DNA of 64,000 bases from Lachnospiraceae bacterium (lineage in GTDB: Bacteria > Bacillota > Clostridia > Lachnospirales > Lachnospiraceae), in NCBI GenBank assembly GCA_018056425.1, contig JAGPFR010000004.1:31394-95393 (forward strand). Direction: 5' to 3'. The notes below the pieces were generated by a model. It worked only from the letters and a program-made list of their open reading frames with translations, searched no databases and was not told the origin of the DNA. The first letter of the stretch is position 1; every line of letters starts with the position of its first letter. Both the position numbers and the translations under genes were made by a program. Of this stretch, positions 16,512 through 55,564 are shown one piece after another.

Positions 16512-16539
16512 GTAAGAGTGGCCGCATGGCCACTCTTAC
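16512..16539 (-). promoter_or_regulatory. 12-bp leader hairpin before rimP (candidate attenuator)
   Basis: GTAAGAGTGGCC/GGCCACTCTTAC is a perfect 12-bp stem with a 4-base loop. On the minus strand it is followed by TTGTTTGTT and then at once by the rimP SD. It lies between the predicted transcription start and the first gene, so it can act as a leaky terminator, an RNA-stability cap or a site for NusA feedback. Confidence 0.65.
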
Positions 16540-16555
16540 ATCAACTACTTAACAT

Positions 16556-16584
16556 AATGTATACCGAATACCGATGATTGTCAA
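16556..16584 (-). promoter_or_regulatory. Sigma-A promoter of the rimP-nusA-infB operon
   Basis: A perfect TTGACA (16579-16584), a 17-base spacer and TACATT (16556-16561) on the minus strand, about 60 bases before rimP. Confidence 0.75.
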
Positions 16585-16599
16585 GGGGGGGTGACAGTA

Positions 16600-16820
16600 T
16601 GGACGCTTCATTTTGTCATTTTCTAATGTGGAAGGTTTCTGCATTCCGCGGGGTGACACGGATGCATGATTTTCGAGACTTCGATGGTCTGCGGCATGAG
16701 ATATAACTATCATTGTTCTATGGCCGCCTGATCCCGAAAAGCGAGAAAATTATGCACCGTGGCAGGCCCCCAGGAATGCAGAAAACTTCTAAGAATATGG
16801 ATGACAAAATGAAGCGTCCA
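16600..16820 (+). repeat. Foldback element B: 20-bp perfect terminal inverted repeats, structured-RNA-like core
   Basis: TGGACGCTTCATTTTGTCAT at 16600-16619 is repeated perfectly inverted at 16801-16820. The interior continues to pair: TTTCTGCATTCC with GGAATGCAGAAA, GGGG with CCCC, CACGG (16657-16661) with CCGTG (16757-16761), and GCATGATTTTC (16664-16674) with GAAAATTATGC (16745-16755). Between these helices sit GAGAC (16675-16679) opposite AAGCGA (16739-16744), and TGA opposite GCAGG (16762-16766). The same loops recur in element A at 30017-30286. It has no coding capacity and no clear target-site duplication. It could be a MITE or a non-coding RNA; the strand given is the one matching element A reversed. 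Confidence 0.8.
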
Positions 16821-16892
16821 GGACAGATCTATACCTCCGAAAAGTCCGGTTGATACAATAGGACCAAGCACCTGTCCGAAGCTTCCATAAAA

Positions 16893-16920
16893 AAATGCAC
16901 CGGAGATTTCCGGTGCATTT
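16893..16920 (-). terminator. Rho-independent terminator after pepF
   Basis: AAATGCACCGGA pairs with TCCGGTGCATTT around a 4-base loop and is followed on the minus strand by seven T. It closes the opp-pepF operon. The remaining bases 16821-16892 hold no gene that I can support. Confidence 0.9.
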
Positions 16921-16944
16921 ATAATACCATATCGGGCCTTTATA

Positions 16945-18618
16945 TCAGATTTTCTTTTTAAGTGCTTCAACAAGTTCTTCTATGCAACCGTCTTCAAAGG
17001 GACTTCTTAAGCCGCACTCCTTAAGCATGGGCTCATAGAATTTGGTAGCCGAGAGCTTGCAGAGCTTAAGGTAATCCTCGAATGCTCCTCTGAAGTCCTC
17101 ATCCATTCTGACCTTAAACTGCATTGCACAGATGCTCGCAAGTACATAGTCGATGTAATAGAAAGGATTCTGGAAGATGTGTCCCTGTCTCTGCCAGTAA
17201 CCGCCCTCTCCGAAGAAAGGATCTCCGTCATAATCAAGGTGAGGTCTGTAAGTCTTCTCAAGTTCTTTCCAGACCTGCTTTCTCTCTGCGGGAGTCATTG
17301 AAGGGTTCTCGTATACGATGTGCTGGAACTCATCAACCATACATCCGTAGGGAACGAAGATGATGGAATCCTCAAGGTGCATGGTAAGATAGTCGTCTTT
17401 TCTGTCACCGAAGAACTTCTCCATCCATCCGTAGGTGAAATATTCCATTGACATGGAGTGGATTTCTGCGGTCTCCATGGTGATCTCATTATGCTCTGGG
17501 ATAGGATCGTTTCTGGTAACAAATCCCTGGAATGCATGTCCGCACTCGTGAGTGATAACATCAACATCTCCGCTGGTTCCGTTGAAGTTAGCAAAAATGA
17601 AAGGTGCCTTGTAATCGGGAAGGAATGTCATGTATCCTCCCTGGGTCTTGGTTTTTCTGCCGAGTACATCAAAGAGGTCATACTCTCTCATAAAGTCCAT
17701 GAACTCTCCGGTTTCGGGTGAGAGCTCTCTGTACATCTCCTGACCTGCTGCAAGGATCTCTTCGGGAGTTCCTACGGGTGCAGGATTTCCCTGAGTGAAA
17801 TGCACTTCGTTGTCGTAGTGCTTAAGTGAGTCAACGCCGATACGCTGACGTCTCTTCTCATGGATCATGGTAGCAAGGGGAACGAATGCTTCCTTAACCT
17901 GCTTCCTGAAATTCTCAACCTGCTCACGTCCGTAGCTGTTTCTGTTCATACGCATGTAGGCTAGAGGAATGTAATTCTCATATCCGAGCTCCTTTGCCTG
18001 CTTGGTACGGTTGGCAACCATCTTATCGTAGATCTCGTCGATTTCGCTGGTTTTGCTTTGGAAGAATTCGCTGATTGCCTTCCAGGCTTTCTTTCTTACT
18101 TCTCTGTCCGAGTCGATAGCGAACTTTCTCATGAGGCTGAGGTTATATACTTCACCCTCGAAAGGAATCTTTGCGGTAGCGATGAGCTTGGTATAACGGC
18201 TGATAAGCTCATTCTCTTCCTGAGCAAGCTTAATGATCTTCTCATCAAATGATTTGATGGAAAGCTCCATGCTCTTAAATGCGACGGGGCCGAGCTTTTC
18301 TTCGAACTCAGCTCTGAAAGGTGAATTATAAAGAACCTTGATATATTTGTTGTTACAGTTTGAAAACAGCGGAGTTACTTCATCGTAATAATCATTCTCC
18401 GCATCATAGAACTTATCCGTGGTGTCAACATCGTGACGGATATGAGCTATGGTAAATTCGGTAAAAAAGTGATTGGAAAGCTCGGTTACTTTCTCATGAA
18501 CCGCCCAGGCTTCTTCAAAGCTCTTCGCATTCTTAAGCGCCTCGGTAAGTTCGGTATATTCTTTTACCGCCTTATCGGAATCGATTCTCTCATAAGGGAG
18601 ATCTTTAAACTTCTGCAT
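16945..18618 (-). CDS. pepF: M3-family oligoendopeptidase (PepF-like)
   Basis: A zinc metallopeptidase of 557 residues that cuts short peptides in the cytoplasm. The active-site motif DVITHECGHAFQGFV (HExxH) lies near residue 350, with the third ligand Glu in ETAEIHSMSMEYFTYGW about 25 residues on. The family segments LARKxxxY-like GRKTKTQGGYMTFLPDYKAPFIFANFNGT are also visible. Length fits the pepF branch of M3. The gene starts 3 bases past the stop of the oligopeptide ABC ATPase and ends in a terminator. Imported peptides are therefore presumably hydrolysed by a co-expressed enzyme. Its exact size preference cannot be read from sequence. Confidence 0.95.
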   Translation of the reverse strand: MQKFKDLPYERIDSDKAVKEYTELTEALKNAKSFEEAWAVHEKVTELSNHFFTEFTIAHIRHDVDTTDKFYDAENDYYDEVTPLFSNCNNKYIKVLYNSPFRAEFEEKLGPVAFKSMELSIKSFDEKIIKLAQEENELISRYTKLIATAKIPFEGEVYNLSLMRKFAIDSDREVRKKAWKAISEFFQSKTSEIDEIYDKMVANRTKQAKELGYENYIPLAYMRMNRNSYGREQVENFRKQVKEAFVPLATMIHEKRRQRIGVDSLKHYDNEVHFTQGNPAPVGTPEEILAAGQEMYRELSPETGEFMDFMREYDLFDVLGRKTKTQGGYMTFLPDYKAPFIFANFNGTSGDVDVITHECGHAFQGFVTRNDPIPEHNEITMETAEIHSMSMEYFTYGWMEKFFGDRKDDYLTMHLEDSIIFVPYGCMVDEFQHIVYENPSMTPAERKQVWKELEKTYRPHLDYDGDPFFGEGGYWQRQGHIFQNPFYYIDYVLASICAMQFKVRMDEDFRGAFEDYLKLCKLSATKFYEPMLKECGLRSPFEDGCIEELVEALKKKI

Positions 18619-18621
18619 TAA

Positions 18622-19674
18622 TTAATTCTCCTTAGTCTCCTTGTTTTCCGCAGAGATAGTTTTATCATACAAATGGCAGGCACAGAAATGGCCGGGCTCT
18701 ACTTCCATCATTTCGGGTGCTTTGTTTTTACATATCTCCATACACTTATCGCATCTTGTATGGAATTTACATCCCGAAGGAGGATTTGCGGGTGAAGGGA
18801 TGTTGCCCTGAAGGACGATCCTGTTCATCTTGTAATCCGGATCGGGGACGGGAATCGCGGAAAAGAGTGCGGTTGTGTAAGGGTGAAGAGGATTTGAATA
18901 AATCTTCTCGGTCTCCGCATACTCAACCATGTTTCCGAGATACATAACACCTACGGTGTCGGATATATGTTCTACAACGGAAAGATCATGTGAGATAAAC
19001 AGATATGTCAGTCCGAACTCTTTCTGAAGTTCTCTGAGCAGGTTGATGATCTGAGCCTGAATGGATACATCAAGTGCAGATACGGGCTCGTCACAGAGAA
19101 TGAAATCCGGATTGAGTGCAAGTGCTCTTGCGATACAGATTCTCTGACGCTGTCCGCCGGAGAACTCGTGAGGGTAGCGGTTCTTGTGCCACTCCTGAAG
19201 TCCGCAGGCTTCCATTACTCTGGTAACGTAATCGTCAAGCTCTTCCTTGGGAACAATGCCGTGCTCTCTTACTGCCTCTGCAATGATCTCGCCGATGGGA
19301 AGTCTTGGAGAAAGGCTTGAATAGGGATCCTGGAAAATGATCTGGATCCTGGGACGGAGTTTTCTCAACTCTTCTTTGGATAACTTGAAGATATCCTGTC
19401 CGTCAAAATAAACCTCTCCGTCGGTTTTATCCTGAAGTCTTAAGATAGTTCTTCCGGTTGTTGACTTACCGCATCCGGACTCACCTACAAGGCCCATGGT
19501 GGTTCCCTTCTTGATAACAAAAGAAACACCGTCGACTGCCTTTACATTACCTATGTTCATCTTAAAGAAGCTTGATTTGATGGGGAAGTACTTCTTCAGA
19601 TTCTTGACTACAAGAAGATTCTCACTGTCTTTTTCAGCGCCTTCAAACGGCATCTGATCTTTTACTTCGCTCAT
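18622..19674 (-). CDS. oppF: Oligopeptide ABC transporter ATP-binding protein (OppF-like)
   Basis: The 350-residue ATPase has Walker [22 protein letters not shown]-loop IIFQDPYSSLSPRLPIGEI, signature EFSGGQRQRICIARAL and Walker B FILCDEPVSALDVSIQAQ. The C-terminal oligopeptide-type extension has SGCKFHTRCDKCMEICKNKAP; four cysteines in that pattern commonly bind an iron-sulfur cluster in Opp/Dpp ATPases. HPYTTALFSAIPVPDP is a family hallmark. The start overlaps the oppD stop by 4 bases, so the two ATPases are coupled and probably form the heterodimer energising the OppBC channel. Confidence 0.95.
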   Translation of the reverse strand: MSEVKDQMPFEGAEKDSENLLVVKNLKKYFPIKSSFFKMNIGNVKAVDGVSFVIKKGTTMGLVGESGCGKSTTGRTILRLQDKTDGEVYFDGQDIFKLSKEELRKLRPRIQIIFQDPYSSLSPRLPIGEIIAEAVREHGIVPKEELDDYVTRVMEACGLQEWHKNRYPHEFSGGQRQRICIARALALNPDFILCDEPVSALDVSIQAQIINLLRELQKEFGLTYLFISHDLSVVEHISDTVGVMYLGNMVEYAETEKIYSNPLHPYTTALFSAIPVPDPDYKMNRIVLQGNIPSPANPPSGCKFHTRCDKCMEICKNKAPEMMEVEPGHFCACHLYDKTISAENKETKEN

Positions 19675-20909
19675 TTTAAAAGCTCCTCCGCATTTACGGT
19701 CTTGGGGTATCCGATAACTTCGCCTTCATCAAAAAATCTGTAGCATGATACGAAGTGGGTATCGGAGATCTTGATCTCAGGGGGATAATCTCCTCCTGCT
19801 TCGCCTACCTTTGCTTTACATCTTTCGCACTGCATTTCGCAGCGGTCACGGAAGTAGCAATAGTCCGGCATATCTACGGGGTTGGGAACGCTTCCTTCGA
19901 TGTTATAAAGCGCATCAACCTTCTTACCTACAACAGGCTTGGACTTCATAAGTCCGATGGTATAAGGATGTGCGGGATGATGGAATATATCATCCGCGGT
20001 TCCTTTTTCGATAACGCGTCCCGCATACATAACAACAACATAATCAGCCATGCTGGCAACAACACCCAGGTCATGGGTGATGAGCATAATGGATGAATTG
20101 ATCTTGTTCTTAAGGTCTGCAAGAAGATCAAGGATCTGTGCCTGAATGGTAACATCGAGAGCTGTGGTGGGCTCGTCTGCGATGATAAGCTCGGGGCTGC
20201 ATGCAAGAGCTATCGCGATCATTACACGCTGTCTCATACCGCCGGAAAGCTCGTGAGGATACATCTCATATACGCCCTCTTTATTGGCGATACCTACCAT
20301 CTCAAGCATCTCGAGAGTACGGGCCTTTATCTGCTCCTTGGTCATCTCGGGATGGTGAAGTTCGAGAACTTCGTTAACCTGCATTCCGATCTTAAAGACG
20401 GGATTAAGGCTTGTCATGGGCTCCTGGAAGATCATTGAGATTCTGTTTCCGCGGATCTCCTGCATTTTGGCAGTAGGAGTATTTACGATATTGTATGCGG
20501 TTCCGTCGCCGAGATTAAAACGGATCTCTCCGCCCACGGTCTGTCCGCTGGGTCTCTGGAGAAGCTGCATGAGCGAAAGGCTGGTTACGGACTTTCCGCA
20601 TCCCGACTCTCCTACGACTCCTACGGTCGAACACTTGGGAATATTAAAGTTGATCCCGTCAACCGCTTTTACGACACCAACGTCGGAAAAAAAGTAAGTG
20701 CAGACATTATCGAACTCGACAACGTTGTTCTCATCCTTCATCTTGGTCGTATAAAGTGAAGGATCCTTCTTGGCATTTGCTCTGTCCGCTTCAAGTTTCT
20801 TGGTAACCTTACGGTTAAACTTGGATATCTTTCTGGATTCTTTAGCGGATATATAAGAAGATGACTTTTTTTCTTCTTTCTTTTCTACTTTATCTTTGTT
20901 ATCAGCCAT
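19671..20909 (-). CDS. oppD: Oligopeptide ABC transporter ATP-binding protein (OppD-like)
   Basis: At 412 residues it is longer than the usual 330 or so because of a lysine-rich, probably disordered N-terminus ([11 protein letters not shown]) of about 65 residues. The ATPase core follows: [55 protein letters not shown] and [18 protein letters not shown]. The C-terminal Opp extension is [19 protein letters not shown], again cysteine-rich. [15 protein letters not shown] is typical of OppD/DppD. It pairs with the downstream OppF. The peptide importer is the natural substrate system from the neighbours. Confidence 0.94.
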
Positions 20910-20938
20910 GATAAACCTCTTACTAAAGCTTATTACTG

Positions 20939-22972
20939 TTATCTCTTGGACTTGGGATCGTATGCATCTCTTAATCCGTCACCTACGAAGTTAAATGCAA
21001 TGACCGTAAGGCAGATAAGAAGACCAACGGGTATCCAGATGTGCTGGTAGTGAGCCATTGCGGTTGCGGATGAAACCGAGTTGATGATCGTTCCCCATGT
21101 TGCCAAAGGATGCTTAACACCAAGACCCAGGAACGAAAGCGTGGATTCTGTAAGAATGACAGAACCCATACCCATGGTCGCTATGACGATCAGCTGTGGC
21201 ATTACGTTGGGAATAAGATGTCTGAAGATCCTCTTACGGACTCTGATTCCGGTTGCCTCTGCAGCGGTCATGAATTCCTGTTCACGAAGTGAGAGGATCT
21301 GTCCGCGCACCATACGTGCAACGCTTGCCCATCCGAGGAATCCCAGTGTAGCCATCATGATCAGCAGTCTTACGTATGTATCCATTCTCAGTGAATCCAT
21401 CGTTGCACCGAGGATGATCATAATGGGAAGTGAAGGCAGGCAGTAGAAAATATCTACCAGTCTCATGATAAGGTTATCAACCCATCCGCCGTAGTATCCT
21501 GCAAGACCGCCCATGATTACTCCAAGGATGATCTCAAGGAAGACAACTACGAAACCTACCATAAGTGATACACGTCCGCCGTACATGATTCTTGCAAGAA
21601 CATCGAATCCATCGCCGTCTGTTCCGAGAACATGTTCTTTGGATGATGAAGCAAACATATCGATGACGTAGATCACCTGATCACAGTTGATGACATATTC
21701 TCCTGTATCTTTCTTGGTGATCTTCAGTTCAGCTTCGGAATACTGAAGATTTCCGTCCTCATCATATACATAAAGACCGTTTTCATCCTGATAAGGGAGA
21801 TTATATACAAGGGTCTCGTTCTTGGAACCTGTCTCAGCCATTTCGGTAACAAGAGCTTCAAGTTCCTTTTTCAATGCATATTCAATACTGTCTTCACCTG
21901 TATATCTTCTAACGGAGAAATTGGAAAGCTCGGCTACTTCATTTCCGTCACCGTCCTGAAGTATAAGGATTCCTTCGGATTCAGTTACTTTGTAAGACTT
22001 GCCGTCAACATCAAAAGTTTTTCCGTCAGTGATATGAAGAAGTGTATTTGCTTTAAGAGAATCGGTTACTTTAACGTCTGATGAAATGGCGTTGAATGTA
22101 AGCTTGGTATAGATCATCGCATCGGATGCACTGCCTGCCGAATATGCATCGTATCCGGAATTGGTTCCGACGAGATAATAGGTCTTACCGCTTACCGCAA
22201 AAGAATAAGCTTTATTCTCGGCAGCCTTTTCAAACGCATCCGCAAAAGACTCGGGAAGCGAATTATCAAACAGAACCACACCATCCAGTTCGGAATAGAT
22301 GTTGTATGATTTGGCAACATCCTTCTCATACAAATATCTGACTCCTTCATATGTGAATGATCCGCCGGTGCGGCTGAAATTATTCGTGAGTGCTTCGAGC
22401 AGGCCTTCAATCTCCTGTCCGGCAAAACTGATGCTTCCGCCCAACATATCATAGACACCGACCAGAGAGCTTCCTTCACCGACGGATGCAATCTTGGATG
22501 CATCTACGGAAGAAAGAACGAAGACATCATCGTTAACTCTGCTGAGAAGAAATGATCCTTCATCGGAAGTGATGATCGCAGCATCTTCCCCTGAAGCAAT
22601 GAGACTCTTTGCCACACTGTTAACGGAAGTGGTTATAGATCTGGGAACGGTAATATCAGCAGATACCGAATAACCGGTGTAGGTGGTCACTTCCTTGGCC
22701 AGAGCATAATTAATATTCTGAGAATCGTATTTATAGAAGATCTCTTTCTGGCCGCAGTGATAAAAAATAGGTCCCAGGAAAGAGAATACGAACATTATGA
22801 TCAGAAGAACGCTTCCGAATACGGCAAGACGGTTTCTGATAAATCTCTTGAAGACCTGTCTGCCGGGAGAGAGAACCTTAACACGGGCAACGTCGTCAAG
22901 TCTGGCAGCGACCTGATTACCGGTGCGTCCGGCCTTCGCTTTTAATATTTCATTTAAATTATATGAAGCCAT
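20939..22972 (-). CDS. oppC: Oligopeptide ABC transporter permease (OppC-like) with a large inserted domain
   Basis: The permease core is typical: cytoplasmic N-terminus ending FKRFIRNRLAVFGSVLLIIMF (first membrane segment, about residues 42-70) and a C-terminal half from about residue 450 with LGTDGDGFDVLARIMYGGRVSLMVGF. It also has the EAA loop FMTAAEATGIRVRKRIFRHLIPNVMP and FLGLGVKHPLATWG. Between them lie about 370 extra residues, hydrophilic and without membrane segments, that should face outside. Ordinary OppC is near 300 residues. The insert may contact the long binding protein. It follows oppB and precedes oppD. Confidence 0.92.
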   Translation of the reverse strand: MASYNLNEILKAKAGRTGNQVAARLDDVARVKVLSPGRQVFKRFIRNRLAVFGSVLLIIMFVFSFLGPIFYHCGQKEIFYKYDSQNINYALAKEVTTYTGYSVSADITVPRSITTSVNSVAKSLIASGEDAAIITSDEGSFLLSRVNDDVFVLSSVDASKIASVGEGSSLVGVYDMLGGSISFAGQEIEGLLEALTNNFSRTGGSFTYEGVRYLYEKDVAKSYNIYSELDGVVLFDNSLPESFADAFEKAAENKAYSFAVSGKTYYLVGTNSGYDAYSAGSASDAMIYTKLTFNAISSDVKVTDSLKANTLLHITDGKTFDVDGKSYKVTESEGILILQDGDGNEVAELSNFSVRRYTGEDSIEYALKKELEALVTEMAETGSKNETLVYNLPYQDENGLYVYDEDGNLQYSEAELKITKKDTGEYVINCDQVIYVIDMFASSSKEHVLGTDGDGFDVLARIMYGGRVSLMVGFVVVFLEIILGVIMGGLAGYYGGWVDNLIMRLVDIFYCLPSLPIMIILGATMDSLRMDTYVRLLIMMATLGFLGWASVARMVRGQILSLREQEFMTAAEATGIRVRKRIFRHLIPNVMPQLIVIATMGMGSVILTESTLSFLGLGVKHPLATWGTIINSVSSATAMAHYQHIWIPVGLLICLTVIAFNFVGDGLRDAYDPKSKR

Positions 22973-23005
22973 GTCTCTTATTATTCCTTTTCTATTCTAT
23001 ATATA

Positions 23006-23995
23006 TCAGCTCAGGCGCACTCTGGGATCAACCGCTGCATAAAGCAGATCGGAGATCAGGTTTCCGAGAAGTGTCAGAACCGAGATAAATGCGAGATAGA
23101 ACATAATAAACGGAATGTCCGCCTGTGTCATTGAATAGTATGAAGCATAGCCGATTCCTCTGATACCGAAGAGCGTTTCGGTAATGAGAGCTCCGGCGAA
23201 GAGGCTGGGAAGCATTCCGCCAAGCATGGTTACAAGAGGAATAAGTGTATTTCTGAAAGCATGCTTTCCGATAACCTTTTTCTCAGGAACGCCCTTTGCA
23301 CGGGCAGTCCTGATGTAATCGGAGTTAAGAACTTCCAGCATATTTGTACGGGTATAGCGCATCAGGCTTCCGATTCCGATAACCGTAAGAGTTACGGCAG
23401 GAAGGATGAAGTGTTTCGCTAAATCCAGGAATTTTCCAAAAGTAGATAAGAACTGATAATCACGGCCCTGCATACCGGTTAGATCCACCCACCCGAGTTT
23501 GACCGCAAATACATATTTAAGAAGTGTCGCCAGGAAGAATGTAGGTAACGAAATACTTACCATGGCGACGACGGTAGTAAAGTAATCCGTGAAACTGTAT
23601 TGCTTTTTGGCCGCTGTTATTCCAAGCGGTATTGCAATTATAACTTCAAAGATAAAAGAAACAAGTCCGAGAGCAAAACTGTACCAAACGGTATCGTTGA
23701 ACTTATCGAGAACAGGGATGGTCCACTGCCAGCTGTCTCCCCAGTTTCCGCGAACCGCACTGCTAAGCCAAACGAAGTAACCCTGTACTACGCCCTTATC
23801 CATTCCGTATTGCGCATTAAGATCCGCAAGCCACTCGGTATAGCTCTTGGTAGCACCGGGACGGGATGCGAGTTCTCTTGCCTTCGTCTCGACAAAGCTC
23901 ATGGGCATGTTATACATCAGCACATAGATGAGGAACATGACGAAGAAAAGAATGAGTACGCTGTACAATAATCGTTTGATTATAAACTTAGCCAT
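23006..23995 (-). CDS. oppB: Oligopeptide ABC transporter permease (OppB-like)
   Basis: Start chosen at ATG 23995 (MAKFIIKRLLYSVLILF), which puts the first membrane helix at the usual place; the ORF extension to 24037 adds 14 non-conserved residues. Roughly 329 residues with six membrane segments. A periplasmic loop carries YGMDKGVVQGYFVWLSSAVRGNWGDS, as in all OppB/DppB proteins. The EAA loop is NSDYIRTARAKGVPEKKVIGKHAFRNTLIPLVTML, and FGIRGIGYASYYSMTQADIPFIM is near the end. It forms the channel heterodimer with OppC. Confidence 0.95.
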   Translation of the reverse strand: MAKFIIKRLLYSVLILFFVMFLIYVLMYNMPMSFVETKARELASRPGATKSYTEWLADLNAQYGMDKGVVQGYFVWLSSAVRGNWGDSWQWTIPVLDKFNDTVWYSFALGLVSFIFEVIIAIPLGITAAKKQYSFTDYFTTVVAMVSISLPTFFLATLLKYVFAVKLGWVDLTGMQGRDYQFLSTFGKFLDLAKHFILPAVTLTVIGIGSLMRYTRTNMLEVLNSDYIRTARAKGVPEKKVIGKHAFRNTLIPLVTMLGGMLPSLFAGALITETLFGIRGIGYASYYSMTQADIPFIMFYLAFISVLTLLGNLISDLLYAAVDPRVRLS

Positions 23996-24079
23996 TTTAA
24001 AAATCCTGCTTTCTAAAACCGGCCCGGAGAGGAGCATGAGCTCCTCTCCAACCGGATGAATGATTAGATTTAGAACTGA

Positions 24080-26398
24080 TTATTTGGTAGCCATGGTGTG
24101 GATCTCAGCATGCCATACCCAGTAAGGAGTCATATCCTGAGCGATGGTATCGATATCGATACGCTCAGTGGAGAAGGTGGTGCAATCCTTTCTCTGATAA
24201 AGAGGAAGCTCGCAGCCCCAATCCATGATGAGTTCCATTGCCTCTTTGTAGATAGCCTTTCTCTCTTCGGTATCAGCGCTTGCACGTCCTGCAGCGATGA
24301 GTTCGTCGAGCTCTGCATCGTCTACTGCATAGTGGTTGGAATTGGTTCCGTTTCCGTGAGCATTCTCACTTGAGTATACCTGAGTCATATCAGGATCCTG
24401 AGTAGCCTGCCAAGCTGCAGCCCACATCATAGCGGTGTTGGACTCAAGTGCATTGTTCCAAACTGAAGTTCCTACGTCGTTAACCTGAAGCTTGATTCCC
24501 ATACTCTCAAGAACTTCGGATGCTGCTACTGCAACACCGTATGCAGGGTGATCCTGCTGTCCCTGTCCGGGGATCATTACTTCATAAGTCTCGGTGAAAT
24601 CGGTGAACTGGCCGGTAGCTTCATCATAGTTGAATCCTGCTGCCTTGAAGAAACCGATTGCAGCTTCCTTAGCTGCTTCATAACGCTGCTCTTCGTTCAT
24701 TGATGCGTCATAGATTGCATTTCCGTCAACGTCTACAGAGTAAGCGGTAACATATCCTTCATCTGCAGGCTGAGGTGCTGCCCATGAAGTGTTGGAGATA
24801 GGATACTGGATAACACCGGCACGATCTCCGTAGTAAGAATTGATAACGGTATCACGATAAACTGAGAAGAGGGTCATGAATCCCTTACGAAGATTCTTGG
24901 AAGCCTCTGAACCGGGCTCACCGTTTACATTAACAAGATCAGCGTTAATTCCGAGATATCCGTATCCACGATAGTCTACAAGAACGGTGGTAATGGTGTC
25001 TCCTACAAGATCTCCGCTGTTAGCGTCCTTGATAGCCTTAACAACATCATCGCTGATGGAAGGAACTGCAATATCGAAGGATCCGGTTACAATACCGGGA
25101 ACATAGTCAGAATCAACAGACTCCTGGAAAAGGAGGTAGTCGGTCTTAGGCTGTCCCTGATAGTAATAAGGGTTAGCCTTAAGAGTAACAACGCCATTTG
25201 AATATCCTTCGAAGGAATAAGCACCGCATCCGAGGGGCTCGCTGTTCTTTGCCTTGATTCCGGAAAGGTCACCCTTTACGAAGCCGAAGCTGTTGTTGTC
25301 GTAATCGTAAAGAGAAGGATCTCCGTAATAGTGAATGGGAGTGATGAAAGCACCGGCGATCTGATAGATAGCGGGAGCATCATACTCGGTCATGTGAATG
25401 GTAAGGCTGTAGTCACCGGTCTTAATAATACCTGAAATGTGATCGGCGGTCTCACCGGTAGATACACCGGTCTCATACTCTGCACCGAGTGCAGCGATGG
25501 TAAGCTGAAGTCTGGTAGAACCTGCAGACTCAACAGACTCAGCTTCTTCAGCAGAATCATAAGAAGCTACGATGGTGTCCCAGAAATCCTGAGCGGTAGC
25601 ATCATCCTCAAGCTCGAAGCCCCAGTTTGCAGCACAAGCAGCTACTGAATCGGAAGCATCGTTGTATCCGTTAGCGATACAGTAATCAACGATCTCCTGA
25701 GCAAAGTCAGCGCCTGCGTTGTTGTTGTAATAATCCCAGAAAGCATTGTACTGATCTTCGGTGTAAAGGTCGGTCTCTTCATATCCCTCTTCACCTGCTG
25801 CGAAAATAACGTTTCCTCTGGAATCCATACCTCCGCGGTAGTCAGCCATTCCCTCGATGGGAAGTGCATAAAGAGTAGCTGATCCGTCGTAAGTAGGATC
25901 GCTTACTACATACATATAGAAAATAAGATCATCGATAGTTGCGGGAGTTCCGTCAGAGAACTTAACATCATCTCTCATGGTGATGTTGTAATCAACTGAT
26001 CCGTCAGCGTTCTGAACAACCTCGATGTCGCCGAGTCCCTTATAGTTATAAGTAGTTCCGTTGTAAACAACGTCCTGTCCTTCGATACCGTCATTGATAA
26101 CAGCTCCGCCACGGTCGGTAGCGCAGATGGTTCCCTGAGTGAGATCTACGATCTCCTGGTCGTAAGCAGTGGTAACGAAGAAAGGGCTGAACTTCTGACC
26201 GAATGTTGATGTTGCATAAACAATGGTAGTGTCCCCCTCAGCGGTCTGAACAGGCTCGGTCACTTCACCTTCCTGTCCCTGCTCCTGCTCGGTTTCAGTA
26301 TCGGGAACGTCCACATTCGCATTGTTCTGACAACCTGCGATCATGGAAAGCGTCATTCCGGCTGAAAGAAGCAGAGCCAATAATTTCTTGCTTTTCAT
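24080..26398 (-). CDS. oppA: Oligopeptide ABC transporter substrate-binding lipoprotein (OppA-like)
   Basis: First gene of the opp-pepF operon, behind AGGAGG. The N-terminus is a lipoprotein signal with lipobox SMIAGC, followed by an acidic Glu/Gln/Thr linker (TEQEQGQEGEV). The SBP_bac_5 fold is seen in DGSVDYNITMRDDVKFSDGTPATIDD, PLGCGAYSFEGYSNGVVTLKANPYYYQG and WNNALESNTAMMWAAAWQATQDPD. At 772 residues it is about 200 longer than standard OppA; extra sequence lies around residues 190-330. It would bind peptides outside the membrane and pass them to OppBC. The 36-base gap to oppB fits one transcript. Confidence 0.94.
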   Translation of the reverse strand: MKSKKLLALLLSAGMTLSMIAGCQNNANVDVPDTETEQEQGQEGEVTEPVQTAEGDTTIVYATSTFGQKFSPFFVTTAYDQEIVDLTQGTICATDRGGAVINDGIEGQDVVYNGTTYNYKGLGDIEVVQNADGSVDYNITMRDDVKFSDGTPATIDDLIFYMYVVSDPTYDGSATLYALPIEGMADYRGGMDSRGNVIFAAGEEGYEETDLYTEDQYNAFWDYYNNNAGADFAQEIVDYCIANGYNDASDSVAACAANWGFELEDDATAQDFWDTIVASYDSAEEAESVESAGSTRLQLTIAALGAEYETGVSTGETADHISGIIKTGDYSLTIHMTEYDAPAIYQIAGAFITPIHYYGDPSLYDYDNNSFGFVKGDLSGIKAKNSEPLGCGAYSFEGYSNGVVTLKANPYYYQGQPKTDYLLFQESVDSDYVPGIVTGSFDIAVPSISDDVVKAIKDANSGDLVGDTITTVLVDYRGYGYLGINADLVNVNGEPGSEASKNLRKGFMTLFSVYRDTVINSYYGDRAGVIQYPISNTSWAAPQPADEGYVTAYSVDVDGNAIYDASMNEEQRYEAAKEAAIGFFKAAGFNYDEATGQFTDFTETYEVMIPGQGQQDHPAYGVAVAASEVLESMGIKLQVNDVGTSVWNNALESNTAMMWAAAWQATQDPDMTQVYSSENAHGNGTNSNHYAVDDAELDELIAAGRASADTEERKAIYKEAMELIMDWGCELPLYQRKDCTTFSTERIDIDTIAQDMTPYWVWHAEIHTMATK

Positions 26399-26470
26399 TT
26401 TTTCTAATCCTCCTAATAAGCATTTCTTTCGACATAAGATCGAAAATATAACACACCTCTGCGGTGAATG

Positions 26471-27013
26471 TTATCCGTTTTCCTTTGCCTCGGCGCATCC
26501 CTTGGCCTTGCCGGCAAGTACGGCAAAAACAAACAAAAATGCGCAGCTTACGGTTATTACGGTATTACGGATCTCAAAACCGTTCCTGACATGCCATACG
26601 ATCTGGCAGACAAGTGATATAAAAGAAAACATCGTATTAAGGAACGCCCAGATAGCTATTCTCTCAAAACCGTGCTTTGTATCTTCCCTCTTCAAAGGTT
26701 CCTTTGCGGTAAGAAATGTGACAAAACCCATGATCAGATGTACATCTCCGAGCAGACACATGATCAGCGGCGCGGATGTATACCATTTATGCATGAGCGG
26801 ATCGGGTATCAAAAGAGGGATCATCGTAAATACGATCTCCATTAATATGAATACGCCGAGAATATTACGGGCTTTTTTTCTGACATCCTCGGGGAGGACA
26901 TAATAAAAGTCAGGGCCTTTGTAACGGGCCGATTTCTTAAGACGTCCCTTCTCATCCCTGATATATTCGACATCATAATCGGAAGTCCGTTCGTTTATCC
27001 TCTCTGAGTCCAT
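26471..27013 (-). CDS. Four-TM membrane protein of unknown function
   Basis: I do not recognise this 180-residue protein. The first 45 residues are hydrophilic and charged (SDYDVEYIRDEKGRLKKSARYKGPDFYYVLPEDVRKKAR). Four hydrophobic segments follow at about residues 50-70, 80-100, 120-140 and 150-170. The cytoplasmic-looking N-terminus with RDEKGRLKK is reminiscent of small Clostridia membrane proteins with no assigned role. The stop is 72 bases upstream of oppA on the same strand. A read-through relation with the opp operon is possible, but no direct functional link is visible. Confidence 0.7.
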   Translation of the reverse strand: MDSERINERTSDYDVEYIRDEKGRLKKSARYKGPDFYYVLPEDVRKKARNILGVFILMEIVFTMIPLLIPDPLMHKWYTSAPLIMCLLGDVHLIMGFVTFLTAKEPLKREDTKHGFERIAIWAFLNTMFSFISLVCQIVWHVRNGFEIRNTVITVSCAFLFVFAVLAGKAKGCAEAKENG

Positions 27014-27213
27014 AACATTAAGACTATATCACAAAAAAATTTACAGAAAAGCCGAAAAAATGCTTATTTGTAGGATTTTGGAAACCTCAGAAAACGTTTT
27101 GTATAAAAATTCATTTTTACCCCTGAAATAACGGGCATTATTCAGTTTTCCGTGGAAACTATGATTAAATTAAAATTTTTTAAATTTCCTGAATATATCG
27201 CATATATGCAAAC

Positions 27214-27243
27214 GGGGACAGTATTCCTGTGGAAACTGTCCCC
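27214..27243 (-). terminator. Hairpin after the FMN-dependent dehydrogenase gene
   Basis: GGGGACAGT/ACTGTCCCC with an extra TTCC/GGAA pair forms a strong stem 20 bases past the stop. The following T content is low (GTTTGCATATATG). Bases 27014-27213 are AT-rich, gene-free spacer. Confidence 0.55.
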
Positions 27244-27262
27244 ATTGACTTTTTGCATGAAA

Positions 27263-28153
27263 TTAATATAACGCAGAATCGTCGATATTGCAAACCTTGT
27301 CAAAGCCCGTGCAGCTCATGACAAAGCGAAGCTCACTCTTAACCTTATTAAGGAATTTCTCCACTCCGGGAGCTCCTTCTTTTTCAAGAGAGGGCATCAT
27401 CGATCTTCCGACAGCCGCGCCGTCGGCACCAAGTGCCAGAGCCTTATATACATCAGCTCCGCTTTCGATTCCGCAATCTGCAAATATCTTAACATCCTTG
27501 CCTTCGAGAGCATCCTTTATCTCGGGAAGGATCATCATGGGAGGCACCGCATAGGGAAGTCTTCCGTGATGGTGGCTTACGATTATTCCCTTAGCACCTA
27601 TCTCCGCACATTTAAGAGCATCGGATACGCTTAAAACCCCTTTTACGACAAATGGAAGCTTTGTGGACTCCACATAGGATCTGAGCATATCGGTTGTCTG
27701 AACAGCCATCTCCTCTCCGACTACGACATCGAGGCCGTTTTCTCCGAAGATGTGGTCTATATCCATTCCGATTCCGAATGCTCCCACGCTCTCTGCATAT
27801 GCAAACTGATCCCGGACTTTACCGTTATCGGCATAGGGCTTAACGATACGTACTGTTTTCGCACCGGTATCTGCGATTTTCTTAAACATGTCGTTTTCCA
27901 TCATTCCGCAGAAATTCAAAATATTGCAGTTTTTAGCGGCGATGGAATATTCTTCAAGTCCCGTAAGTTCCCTTCCCTCCAGCTGACCTATATGTGAAAA
28001 TGCGGGAGTAAGAACGGGGCTGTCAAAGGTCTCTCCCCAGATTTCGGTTGATGTATCCGCAACTGCGGAATCGATCAGTCTTTGTTCGAAGAGAATGGAA
28101 TCCATGTACTTGGCAGTGATCTCATTTGCATCAGATATCCTTGTATAAGCCAT
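27263..28153 (-). CDS. FMN-dependent alpha-hydroxy-acid dehydrogenase family protein
   Basis: This 296-residue TIM-barrel protein resembles the lactate dehydrogenase (LldD)/glycolate oxidase family but is short and lacks most of the usual N-terminal region. The FMN-binding second half is clear: LPFVVKGVLSVSDALKCAEIGAKGIIVSHHHGR (catalytic His and Arg region; the usual form is SNHGGR), IFADCGIESGADVYKALALGADGAAVGR (phosphate site). An AAGGAGG lies 6 bases from the ATG. The gene overlaps the sugar isomerase-like gene by 23 bases. Its substrate is unknown; the neighbours suggest a sugar-derived hydroxy acid. Other FMN TIM-barrel oxidoreductases remain possible. Confidence 0.8.
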   Translation of the reverse strand: MAYTRISDANEITAKYMDSILFEQRLIDSAVADTSTEIWGETFDSPVLTPAFSHIGQLEGRELTGLEEYSIAAKNCNILNFCGMMENDMFKKIADTGAKTVRIVKPYADNGKVRDQFAYAESVGAFGIGMDIDHIFGENGLDVVVGEEMAVQTTDMLRSYVESTKLPFVVKGVLSVSDALKCAEIGAKGIIVSHHHGRLPYAVPPMMILPEIKDALEGKDVKIFADCGIESGADVYKALALGADGAAVGRSMMPSLEKEGAPGVEKFLNKVKSELRFVMSCTGFDKVCNIDDSALY

Positions 28154-28964
28154 TTAATTCCTCCTTAAGATAACCCATGAACATGATATATTTTTCATCG
28201 GAATCAAGGTGCTCTAAGATGACGGGCATATCGTGGTCAATCTCATCCATCCTCTCTGCATAATGTCTTAAGGGAAACTCGCCGTCACCCGGTCCGCACT
28301 CTTCAAGTCTGAGAGTATATGCACTGCCGAGGTGAACATCCTTGATATGGCAGCTTCTGATACGGTCTCCGAGAAGATCCGCACACTCATCTATGAATTC
28401 ATCCGCATGGAAATATCTGTCCGCGGAATTTATCATGTTGATAACATCCATGTGAACCGCAAATCTGTCGCGGTCAACCGCATCTATCAGCTTAAGGTAA
28501 TCACGCGGTCCCGTCGGGATCATCCACGGCATGGGCTCAAGGGTAAACCAGGTATTTTTAGGATCTGCTCTGTCAATAACATCCCTTACCATGGCAACGG
28601 TCTTATCCCACGCATCCTGTGTGAAATTTTCTTTATATCCTCCGTCCCATATCCGTCCGAAAGAACCTGCCACGTTAACCGCACATCTTGCTCCGAGGAA
28701 ATCGGCAAGGCGAAGCTGTTCTACGCAGTAATCCATATTTGCTTTGCGCTCATCCGGATCTGCGGCAAGAGCATTTCTCCATATTCCGACTTCGGCAATC
28801 GAAAGCCCTGCTTTTTCCGCAGCTTCCTTATATGCGATTATCTTCTTTTCCGGTTCATTACTCTGAACAGGAAAAACAACCGCAGAGCAGCCTAGTCCGA
28901 TCTGCTTTTGGACCCACTCTTCGGGAGAATTATGTCTTAAAGGAGATGATGTTCCAAGTCTCAT
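28131..28964 (-). CDS. Sugar phosphate isomerase/epimerase-like TIM barrel (xylose isomerase-like)
   Basis: A 277-residue AP-endonuclease-2-type TIM barrel. Visible family features are MRLGTSSPL at the first strand, AGLSIAEVGIWRN, TWFTLEPMPWMIPTGP (metal-ligand Glu), FAVHMDVINMINS (Asp/His ligands), IRSCHIKDVHLGSAYT (His ligand) and PVILEHLDSDEKY (final Glu). The expected metal-binding Glu, Asp, His and Glu are thus present. These enzymes interconvert keto- and aldo-sugars or epimerise them; the actual substrate cannot be read. The start overlaps the downstream stop of the epimerase gene by 4 bases, which implies tight coupling with it. Confidence 0.85.
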   Translation of the reverse strand: MRLGTSSPLRHNSPEEWVQKQIGLGCSAVVFPVQSNEPEKKIIAYKEAAEKAGLSIAEVGIWRNALAADPDERKANMDYCVEQLRLADFLGARCAVNVAGSFGRIWDGGYKENFTQDAWDKTVAMVRDVIDRADPKNTWFTLEPMPWMIPTGPRDYLKLIDAVDRDRFAVHMDVINMINSADRYFHADEFIDECADLLGDRIRSCHIKDVHLGSAYTLRLEECGPGDGEFPLRHYAERMDEIDHDMPVILEHLDSDEKYIMFMGYLKEELNGLYKDI

Positions 28965-29989
28965 ACCGACTCCTTTGCCTTCTCAACCGCAGCGATCACG
29001 CGGTCACACCACTCATCGAATTCGGGATCTTCTACCTGACATTCGGGATGGGACAATACATAATCAAGCGCGATCTTTACACCCATATCGAATCTGACGT
29101 TGGTAGCCATATCGGGAACAACTCTCTTTAGCTTACTGTTATCGAAAATAACAGATACCGACTTATCTCCAAGGAGTGATCCGGTAAAATCAAATCCGTA
29201 TTTATCTCCGACAGCACGCAGGAAATCTGTGGATACATGATAAGCATTCAGCTTAACTCCGAGTACATCAGCAATGGTCTTATATATCTGATCCCAGGTA
29301 AGTGCTTCATCGGAAGTTATCTGGAATGCTTCACCGATCGCATGTCTGTTTCCCATAAGTCCGGTATATCCGATTGCAAAGTCAGCGTTCCATGTAAGGG
29401 TCCAGAGGCTGGATCCGTCTCCCTGAATGATGACAGGTTTTCCTTCCTGCATTCTCTTAATAACCTGCCAGAAACCTTTCTTTCCGTGAACTCCGAGAGG
29501 AACATTTCTCTCACCATATGTATGGCTCGGACGAACTATGGTCACGGGGAAGCCTTCCTCTTTGTATTTTTTCATGAGGAATTCTTCGCACTCAATCTTG
29601 TCTCTTGAATATTGCCAATAGGGATTAGCGAGGGATGTTCCCTCGGTGATGATATAGTTCGCAGCCGGCTTATGATAAGCGGATGCGGAACTGATATAGA
29701 TATACTGATTTGTTTTATCTTTAAAGATCCGATAGTCTCTTTCAACCTGCGATACATGGAATCCGATGAATTCGCACACACAGTCAAAAGTCATATCGCC
29801 GATCTTTTCAAGCACGGCACTCTCATCGTTCACATCACATACAATGCTGTGAACGCTTGCGGGAAGGACATCGTTTCTGTTTCCCCTGTTTAAAACCCAT
29901 ACCTCCCAGTCAAGTTCGTTGACAAGTCTCTTAACGACTGCCGTACTGATAGTGCCTGTTCCCCCAATAAACAGCGCCTTTTTCTTCAT
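28961..29989 (-). CDS. NAD-dependent epimerase/dehydratase family protein
   Basis: Start at ATG 29989 (MKKKALFIGGTGTISTAVV) behind AAGGAGG; a frame to 30040 would run into the foldback element. The Rossmann motif GGTGTIS is at residue 9. YISSASAYHKPAA gives the conserved Ser, and YSRDKIECE supplies the catalytic YxxxK pair near residue 135. HTYGERNVPLG and FQITSDEALTWDQI follow. About 342 residues, typical of extended short-chain dehydrogenases acting on nucleotide sugars or free sugars. The substrate is unknown. Its neighbours are an oxidoreductase of the Gfo/Idh/MocA class upstream and the isomerase downstream. Confidence 0.88.
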   Translation of the reverse strand: MKKKALFIGGTGTISTAVVKRLVNELDWEVWVLNRGNRNDVLPASVHSIVCDVNDESAVLEKIGDMTFDCVCEFIGFHVSQVERDYRIFKDKTNQYIYISSASAYHKPAANYIITEGTSLANPYWQYSRDKIECEEFLMKKYKEEGFPVTIVRPSHTYGERNVPLGVHGKKGFWQVIKRMQEGKPVIIQGDGSSLWTLTWNADFAIGYTGLMGNRHAIGEAFQITSDEALTWDQIYKTIADVLGVKLNAYHVSTDFLRAVGDKYGFDFTGSLLGDKSVSVIFDNSKLKRVVPDMATNVRFDMGVKIALDYVLSHPECQVEDPEFDEWCDRVIAAVEKAKESV

Positions 29990-30016
29990 GGAAATACCCT
30001 CCTTAGTTATAAAACT

Positions 30017-30286
30017 CGCAGGGACTTGCATCTGTCCCACGGGTCCTGCCGCGACGCATAACTGTCTCGCTTTTCGATTTCAGGCGGAAATGCTTCACAA
30101 GGCACGTTTCGGCTCATGACGCGAGGCCACTCACTTCGTTCGGGCCGGGCGGCCGCATTTTTTCGCAGAAATCGAAGTCTCGACAGCTTATGCATTCGCA
30201 GACAGGAAGTCTGAAAGACATGGTCGCAAGTACACGGATGTACTTGCATGTCCACGCCACCCCTTGGACATATGTAAGTCCCTGCG
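30017..30286 (-). repeat. Foldback element A: terminal inverted repeats, second copy of the structured-RNA-like family
   Basis: CGCAGGGACTT at 30017-30027 is repeated inverted at 30276-30286, extended by CAT/ATG and TGTCC/GGACA pairs. On the minus strand the core has GCATAAGCTGTC-GAGAC-TTCGATTTC opposite GAAATCGAA-AAGCGA-GACAGTTATGC. The loop sequences are identical to element B and the helices are different but still paired. GCAGG (30045-30049) is also conserved. Further hairpins are GCAAGTACA/TGTACTTGC, CAGAC/GTCTG and AAATGC/GCATTT. It starts 5 bases past the stop of the upstream oxidoreductase gene and ends before the epimerase SD, so it probably lies within a transcript. No coding capacity. 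RNA family not recognised. Confidence 0.8.
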
Positions 30287-55333: not shown

Positions 55334-55406
55334 AGCTGATGACCAGAATCGAACTGGTGACCTCCGCCTTACCAAGGCGACGCTCTACCGACTGAGCCAC
55401 ATCAGC
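55334..55406 (-). tRNA. tRNA-Thr (GGT anticodon)
   Basis: The minus strand has acceptor stem GCTGATG/CATCAGC, a D arm with GGCTCAGTCGGTAGAGC, anticodon loop TTGGTAA (anticodon GGT) and T loop GTTCGATTC. The CCA is not encoded. Third of three tRNAs. Confidence 0.93.
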
Positions 55407-55407
55407 G

Positions 55408-55481
55408 TAGCGAGGGGGAGATTCGAACTCTCGACACCGCGGGTATGAACCGCGTGCTCTAGCCAACTGAGCTACCTCGCC
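55408..55481 (-). tRNA. tRNA-Met (CAT anticodon), elongator type
   Basis: Acceptor stem GGCGAGG with CCTCGCT, D arm with AGCTCAGTTGGCTAGAGC, anticodon loop TTCATAC (CAT), T loop GTTCGAATC. The paired first position (G-U) and GGTAGCTCAG type argue for the elongator rather than the initiator. CCA not encoded. Confidence 0.9.
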
Positions 55482-55491
55482 TCAAAAAAAA

Positions 55492-55564
55492 TGGAACCTA
55501 TAGGGCTCGAACCTATGACCCTCTGCTTGTAAGGCAGATGCTCTCCCAGCTGAGCTAAGATTCC
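55492..55564 (-). tRNA. tRNA-Val (TAC anticodon)
   Basis: Acceptor stem GGAATCT with AGGTTCC, D arm with AGCTCAGCTGGGAGAGC, anticodon loop CTTACAA (TAC) and T loop GTTCGAGCC. First tRNA of the cluster, nearest to the promoter. Confidence 0.93.

Follow-up and report, generated by a model that had tools for sequence, protein, structure and literature searches.

Elements A and B, two sequences on opposite strands of the 64-kb window (the whole stretch of Lachnospiraceae DNA that was analysed), raise the question of what is conserved when helices are rewritten and their pairing is kept. A preliminary description based on these two copies regarded them as the best candidate in the window for an undescribed RNA family. 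We favour a different answer, to which we assign a probability of about one half: A and B are copies of a dispersed, non-autonomous, REP/MITE-like folded repeat of approximately 125-230 bp, which would be recognised by its fold and which inverts in place.

Two elements that share a fold

The two cores were scored with R1, a covariance model of eight copies, and with R2, a broader model. The features of both elements are as follows.

16600..16621, plus strand: left outer arm of B; the fold pairs it with 16799-16820
16629..16647, plus strand: left inner arm of B; pairs with 16773-16791
16646..16770, plus strand: element B, short-form core (CCGCGGGGTGACACGG ... CCGTGGCAGGCCCC); R1 79.7 bits at 16647-16770, R2 82.0 bits
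16674..16679, plus strand: CGAGAC, 5' side of the tandem G-A internal loop of B
16739..16744, plus strand: AAGCGA, 3' side of the tandem G-A internal loop of B
16773..16791, plus strand: right inner arm of B; pairs with 16629-16647
16799..16820, plus strand: right outer arm of B; the fold pairs it with 16600-16621
30018..30040, minus strand: 3' outer arm of A as read on this strand; the fold pairs it with 30264-30285
30041..30210, minus strand: element A, long-form core; R1 170.6 bits at 30041-30209, R2 156.6 bits
30067..30072, minus strand: AAGCGA in A
30177..30182, minus strand: CGAGAC in A
30200..30255, minus strand: 56 additional nt with a hairpin, inserted between GGGGTGGC and GCGAATGCAT on the 5' side of A, from comparison with other copies
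30256..30263, minus strand: GGGGTGGC, displaced 5' end of core A
30264..30285, minus strand: 5' outer arm of A as read on this strand; the fold pairs it with 30018-30040

B is a short form of about 125 nt, and A is a long form of about 170 nt with an additional apical domain. The compensatory changes proposed in the preliminary description are present for two of the three helices that it named. The outer helix reads AUUUUC/GAAAAU in B and CUGUC/GACAG in A, and the inner helix around CGAGAC/AAGCGA, formed by UUCGAUGGUC with GAUCCCGAA in B (plus strand) and by UUCGAUUUC/GAAAUCGAA in A (minus strand), differs yet pairs in both. For the third helix the proposal holds on one side: CACGG/CCGUG does lie beside GCAGG in B, but the CGUG/CGCG cited for A is not at the homologous position. 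According to the model alignment, the counterpart in A is UGCG at 30197-30200, and the helix is disturbed there because of the 56-nt stretch with its hairpin (30200-30255). Chance had been called an unlikely explanation, and comparison with shuffled sequences agrees (z of -10.9 for the fold of B and -7.9 for that of A, with none of 200 shuffles equal to either). Both strands of each element fold strongly, at -117 and -103 kcal/mol for B and -131 and -129 kcal/mol for A. The AAGCGA motif by itself is uninformative, given that it occurs 30 times in the window versus 39.9 expected.

A repeat family of one genus and its genomic setting

A search with B, followed by R1, yields 11 copies in the genome that carries the window (G000), A and B included. 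Seventeen of the 31 species examined from one Lachnospiraceae genus carry the element, at 1 to 16 copies each, and R2 again finds 17 carriers. Under strict filters, matches among 397 genomes sampled from the family are confined to two genomes, both of the same genus, and among 391 sampled from the class the own genome alone matches. These two scans scored seven candidates per genome and recovered 7 of the 11 own copies, so they could overlook distant copies that are weak or single. In named genomes, a pattern scan picked out 44 stretches, of which R1 confirms 32, from eight genomes that are all titled Lachnospiraceae, five of them with rumen or omasum in their names. The 12 stretches that R1 leaves unconfirmed include every one from other groups, and in two of the 12 (L042 and L051) R2 found nothing.

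The gene beside B codes for an M3 peptidase (labelled pepF) and has a match in 13 of the 31 genomes. All seven genomes with a match of at least 83% identity are carriers, none of the five at 75% is, and the one genome with fragments only has no element. Judged from these sequences, element presence follows relatedness among the 13.

Neither A nor B matches any of 4227 Rfam families at the gathering threshold, and E-value scans of A, B and nine loci of relatives gave weak matches only (for example MicX, at 21 bits versus a cut-off of 75). A blastn comparison of one long-form core with plasmids and phages gave no match, and we found no description of the repeat in the open-access literature. Carriage by phages, plasmids or viruses was considered and rejected, as of three pattern scans of viral contigs one gave L210, one L211 and one nothing, and R2 recognises neither of the two stretches. 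The family is apparently an undescribed, strongly folded repeat of one gut and rumen bacterial group. As a side result, the Rfam scan of the window at gathering thresholds matched a cluster of three tRNAs at 55334-55564 (minus strand) and nothing else.

With the elements masked, the neighbours of 108 copies are convergent in 35 cases, tandem in 55 (25 in one orientation and 30 in the other) and divergent in 5, with one neighbour missing in 13. Without masking, half of the core falls within a mechanically called open reading frame of at least 60 aa in 64 of the 108 copies, and in 15 of the 108 a frame spans the core plus 30 nt on each side. Frames of at least 150 aa cover half of the core in 12 copies; these are 13 frames, comprising 6 neighbour frames whose first start codon lies upstream, in or beyond the core, and 7 other frames. 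We read the frames over cores as chance frames rather than interrupted genes, and none is clearly interrupted. Of the 22 genes next to the 11 copies in the own genome, 2 lack a Pfam match and the others code for ordinary proteins; no transposase is among them. A riboswitch or leader function is not favoured, because these neighbours have no common function and the orientation of the element is random. Replication-strand bias is likewise absent (50 of 108 copies have positive skew). Several copies occupy short gaps between closely spaced genes; one of them (L135) is 20 and 26 bp from its flanking genes. The element is therefore multicopy, intergenic and patchy among close relatives, as MITE-like intergenic repeats are.

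Patchiness is evident at individual sites. The relative G200 lacks both copies that the own genome carries on contig C43; one of the two empty sites retains a 12-bp stretch that resembles a leftover element end, the other a small GGGGACGG palindrome, and neither presents a clean target-site duplication. Beside pepF, where the own genome has B, there is no core in G200, G213, G214 or G224. A coreless palindrome in G213 and G214 precedes the pepF terminator, whereas B follows the terminator, and hence the palindrome is a near neighbour only. At about 16820-16890 (minus strand), beside B and preceding it, we also noted by eye a truncated remnant, apparently of the gene that lies downstream of pepF in G200, G213, G214 and G224.

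A promoter-like site at 16549-16578 (plus strand, 9 of 12 positions matching) is directed into B on B's own strand. It is weaker than the promoter-like site that precedes rimP on the minus strand; on that strand B is flanked by this site and by the terminator-like hairpin that follows pepF. Ahead of rimP-nusA there is also a GTAAGAGTGGCC..GGCCACTCTTAC hairpin with a T-rich tail (16512-16539, minus strand), similar to ones in G221 and G227, which from its sequence looks like a leader terminator or attenuator. In one group of species (G205, G209, G212 and G215; L087, L101, L102, L104 and others) the element has its own GTCAGGAGA..TCTCCTGAC terminator-like hairpin on each side, so that the core is enclosed by the two hairpins as inverted repeats.

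Covarying helices and copies that turn in place

Alignment A6 contains 108 copies and was fitted to the structure model, and its covariation counts consequently lean towards the structure. In it, 91.7% of 5336 cells are standard pairs, and double changes occur in 46 of 55 pairs; there are 847 double-change cells, whereas shuffling gives 224 and sliding the partners 68-108. Pairing is weak in the apical helices, at 78.5% for H11 and 67.0% for H12. The preliminary description predicted significant covarying pairs at the three helices that it named in an alignment of 20 or more homologues, and we examined this with a home-made substitute for R-scape. For tree-aware tests the 108 copies were reduced to 80, by removal of copies listed as odd or truncated and of any not within 155-180 nt, and then to 68 with less than 95% identity, a set of long forms from which short forms such as B are absent. 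Against a tree-aware null, 17 pairs are significant in this set, 14 of them in the structure, and a two-set test gives 23 of 55. A structure-blind alignment of the same 68 copies retains six significant pairs, five of them at least 75% canonical. The family thus exhibits the covariation of a structured RNA family, more weakly when the alignment is structure-blind.

The further claim that the loops stay fixed did not survive. Across the 68 copies the mean majority frequency is 0.770 at unpaired positions and 0.761 at paired ones, and only the tandem G-A/G-A is near-invariant, its four positions being retained in 99, 99, 100 and 105 of 108 copies. Such tandem G-A motifs would be expected to form sheared pairs. 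The pair that closes the motif itself covaries (G-C in 69 copies, C-G in 24, A-T in 5), and at columns 12/351 an A-G/G-A swap is seen, with 62 and 23 copies.

Whether these patterns reflect RNA depends partly on how helices pass from one pair to another. Within H3-H8, G-U accounts for 2.6% of cells (93) versus 1.2% for A-C (43), and H4 alone has 47 G-U cells versus 9 A-C. Reconstructed changes on the tree comprise about 139 double Watson-Crick changes, 34 single changes to G-U, 18 to A-C and 45 to other mismatches. A strand-specific RNA is expected to favour G-U over A-C more strongly; here the preference is strong in H4 and less so in the whole element. The tRNA control for G-U (7 in 135 pairs) comes from six tRNAs and is too small a control. 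Double changes at adjacent pairs are not clustered (13 versus 9.3, s.d. 2.7, with 115 of 1000 shuffles as high), which speaks against wholesale copying of one arm onto the other.

In the 45 nt outside the elements, opposite flanks pair at an average of -28.8 kcal/mol, versus -14.7 kcal/mol for mismatched partners and -17.6 kcal/mol for same-genome copies, and 15 of 100 pass a 1% null threshold. Given the random orientation to genes, the turning of copies in place described below, the rarity of G-U intermediates and the fact that both strands fold strongly, a DNA palindrome or two-strand hairpin fits at least as well as an RNA. Thus, the part of the preliminary proposal that stands is a structurally conserved family with no Rfam fit; that it acts as an RNA does not follow.

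When both neighbours of an element are matched between genomes, 18 pairs have the same orientation, 27 are opposite and one (L094/L177) is ambiguous. Stricter neighbour matching defines 78 sites, 20 of them common to more than one species, and both orientations are found at 15 of these 20, the L094/L177 site included. Nine junction alignments contain a reversed core between colinear flanks. The best reading is that the element works, or spreads, independently of orientation.

Reciprocal-best element matches make up 7 of the 27 flipped and 6 of the 18 unflipped ortholog pairs. In 8 of these 13 the elements are 0.94-0.99 identical, above both flanks (84-94%), where flank identity omits the nearest 60 bp and element identity scores gaps as differences; in the other 5 they are not. 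Flipped copies can be 97-99% identical between flanks of 84-91%, as with L186/L119 (element identity 0.988, flanks 90 and 87%). Such high element identity could result from recent gene conversion or transfer instead of constraint. Some shared sites hold very different elements, with identity down to 0.25 and partly short versus long forms, so replacement or re-insertion probably occurs there too. On average, element identity is 0.641 within genomes, 0.667 at shared sites in the same orientation, 0.655 at flipped sites and 0.510 otherwise. The excess over other copies of the same genome pair is small, at +0.077 for same orientation (11 of 18 positive) and +0.078 for flipped (18 of 27 positive).

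Competing explanations and known systems

An obvious competitor is a structured non-coding RNA family, either a trans-acting RNA or an RNA-protein scaffold, whose genes are multicopy and whose covariation reflects selection on the RNA. Covariation in excess of a tree-based null, a tandem G-A loop with covarying closing pairs, the A-G/G-A swap, G-U above A-C in H3-H8 and the promoter-like site directed into B are all as such a family would have them, and the unclustered double changes are those expected of pair-by-pair compensation. However, tandem contexts are split nearly evenly in orientation and copies turn in place, so that such an RNA would need a promoter inside the element or read-through from either side; B also has, on the minus strand, a terminator-like hairpin on one side and a promoter-like site on the other, and there is no Rfam match. 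We consider an RNA family doubtful on this evidence. We rate as unlikely a simpler role as a bidirectional 3'-end hairpin, which would end transcription or protect mRNA 3' ends on both sides in either orientation. Contexts that are mostly convergent or tandem and rarely divergent, the folding strength of each strand, the resemblance of the flanking GTCAGGAGA hairpins to terminators and the T tracts after some copies agree with this role, but TTTT occurs in only 23 of 100 3' flanks and is missing from the other 77. Moreover, termination within tight gene pairs such as that at L135 would cut an operon, and the apical domain and the G-A motif are superfluous for a plain terminator.

Mutation alone must also be considered, because template switching between inverted arms can yield such patterns, which means that covariation by itself is no proof of RNA. 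As described in two papers (PMC8604942, PMC8794818), this process homogenises arms and inverts spacers by mutation, and it could keep helices complementary with no selection on the fold. The ratio of double changes to G-U changes on the tree and the frequency of inversion are in accord with it. Yet the near-invariant unpaired G-A loop, which this process should have erased, is still there; runs of double changes at adjacent pairs are without significant excess; and dispersion to 78 sites is left unexplained. Mutation as the whole explanation therefore seems quite improbable to us.

The reading that we prefer, a dispersed folded repeat, would take the conserved object to be a folded single strand, namely a long, interrupted hairpin whose helices covary and which includes the tandem G-A internal loop and an apical domain. 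The element lies mostly at gene 3' ends, in many cases within or flanked by palindromic sequences that resemble terminators. A putative trans-acting enzyme may spread the element by recognising this fold, and recombination or template switching between the inverted arms may invert it in place. Several points count against this reading: most carriers have no Y1 or reverse-transcriptase partner, no target-site duplication is definable, the G-U tolerance of H4 favours one strand, a promoter-like site points into B, high element identity may stem from gene conversion or transfer, and the elements at some shared sites are very dissimilar.

The search for such an enzyme covered two candidates, in draft genomes. 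The Y1 transposase domain PF01797 is found in 4 of the 17 carriers (G116, G200, G214 and G222) and in 5 of the 14 element-free genomes; it has no match in 13 of the 17 carriers, among them G000, G205 and G212, and a RAYT (Y1) partner is consequently unsupported. The reverse-transcriptase domain PF00078 is found in 3 of 17 carriers (G213, G220 and G226) versus 5 of 14 others, and it is absent from 14 of 17, among them G000, G200, G205 and G212, which leaves a group II intron or reverse-transcriptase partner likewise unsupported. Leaving aside a few partial matches, several of them located at contig ends, the genus searches revealed neither a gene-bearing version nor a copy split around a gene in the 31 genomes.

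Each of the known systems considered here resembles the element in part. Stem-loop repeat families are treated in a survey (PMC2267715). REP/BIME, ERIC and BOX repeats are similarly dispersed and intergenic, with stem-loop folds mostly at the 3' ends of genes, but here the multi-helix fold is larger, 13 of 17 carriers lack the Y1 transposase, helices are rewritten by compensatory change and copies invert at shared sites. MITEs such as Correia and RUP are also short, non-autonomous, patchy between close species and bounded by inverted repeats. In contrast to them, the present element has an internal covarying structure, and neither a parental transposase (Y1 was searched) nor a target-site duplication (at the two G200 sites) was found. 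With Rfam structured RNA families it shares covariation, conserved non-canonical pairs and an apical domain, whereas it matches no family and is oriented at random to its neighbours. Integron attC and other folded single-strand sites likewise keep structure over sequence and have conserved unpaired bases; unlike attC arrays, the copies here stand singly between housekeeping genes, and the comparison concerns features of the fold.

More speculatively, the element could represent a new class of mobile nucleic acid, specific to one genus and recognised by shape, through the tandem G-A loop and the apical domain, by an undiscovered enzyme. Such an element could rewrite its helices freely and invert in place, and at several sites it would be held above gene identity as if the host depended on it. 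We regard this as a tentative idea, and on balance a doubtful one. If the element is mobile, an enzyme that reads shape and not sequence is implied. In any case, textbook compensatory base changes in a freely inverting chromosomal element offer a test bed for separating RNA selection from DNA-palindrome selection or mutation, and the poorly studied rumen bacterial group gains a new countable repeat family.

Other small repeats and palindromes came to light as well. The stretch inserted in A (30200-30255, minus strand) is itself a hairpin repeat, GACAGGAAGTC..GAAAGACATG..TGCAAGTACA..TGTACTTGCATGTCCACG, and a similar small hairpin abuts the 3' end of three copies (L155, L156 and L158) and lies in or beside copies of several species, on either side. 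Coreless intergenic palindromes were encountered downstream of pepF (L196, L197), near the second C43 site (L213) and at L208 and L209. Several have GGGGACG..CGTCCCC arms, for which a narrow pattern finds two places in the own genome, and by their sequences they are likely a separate palindrome family.
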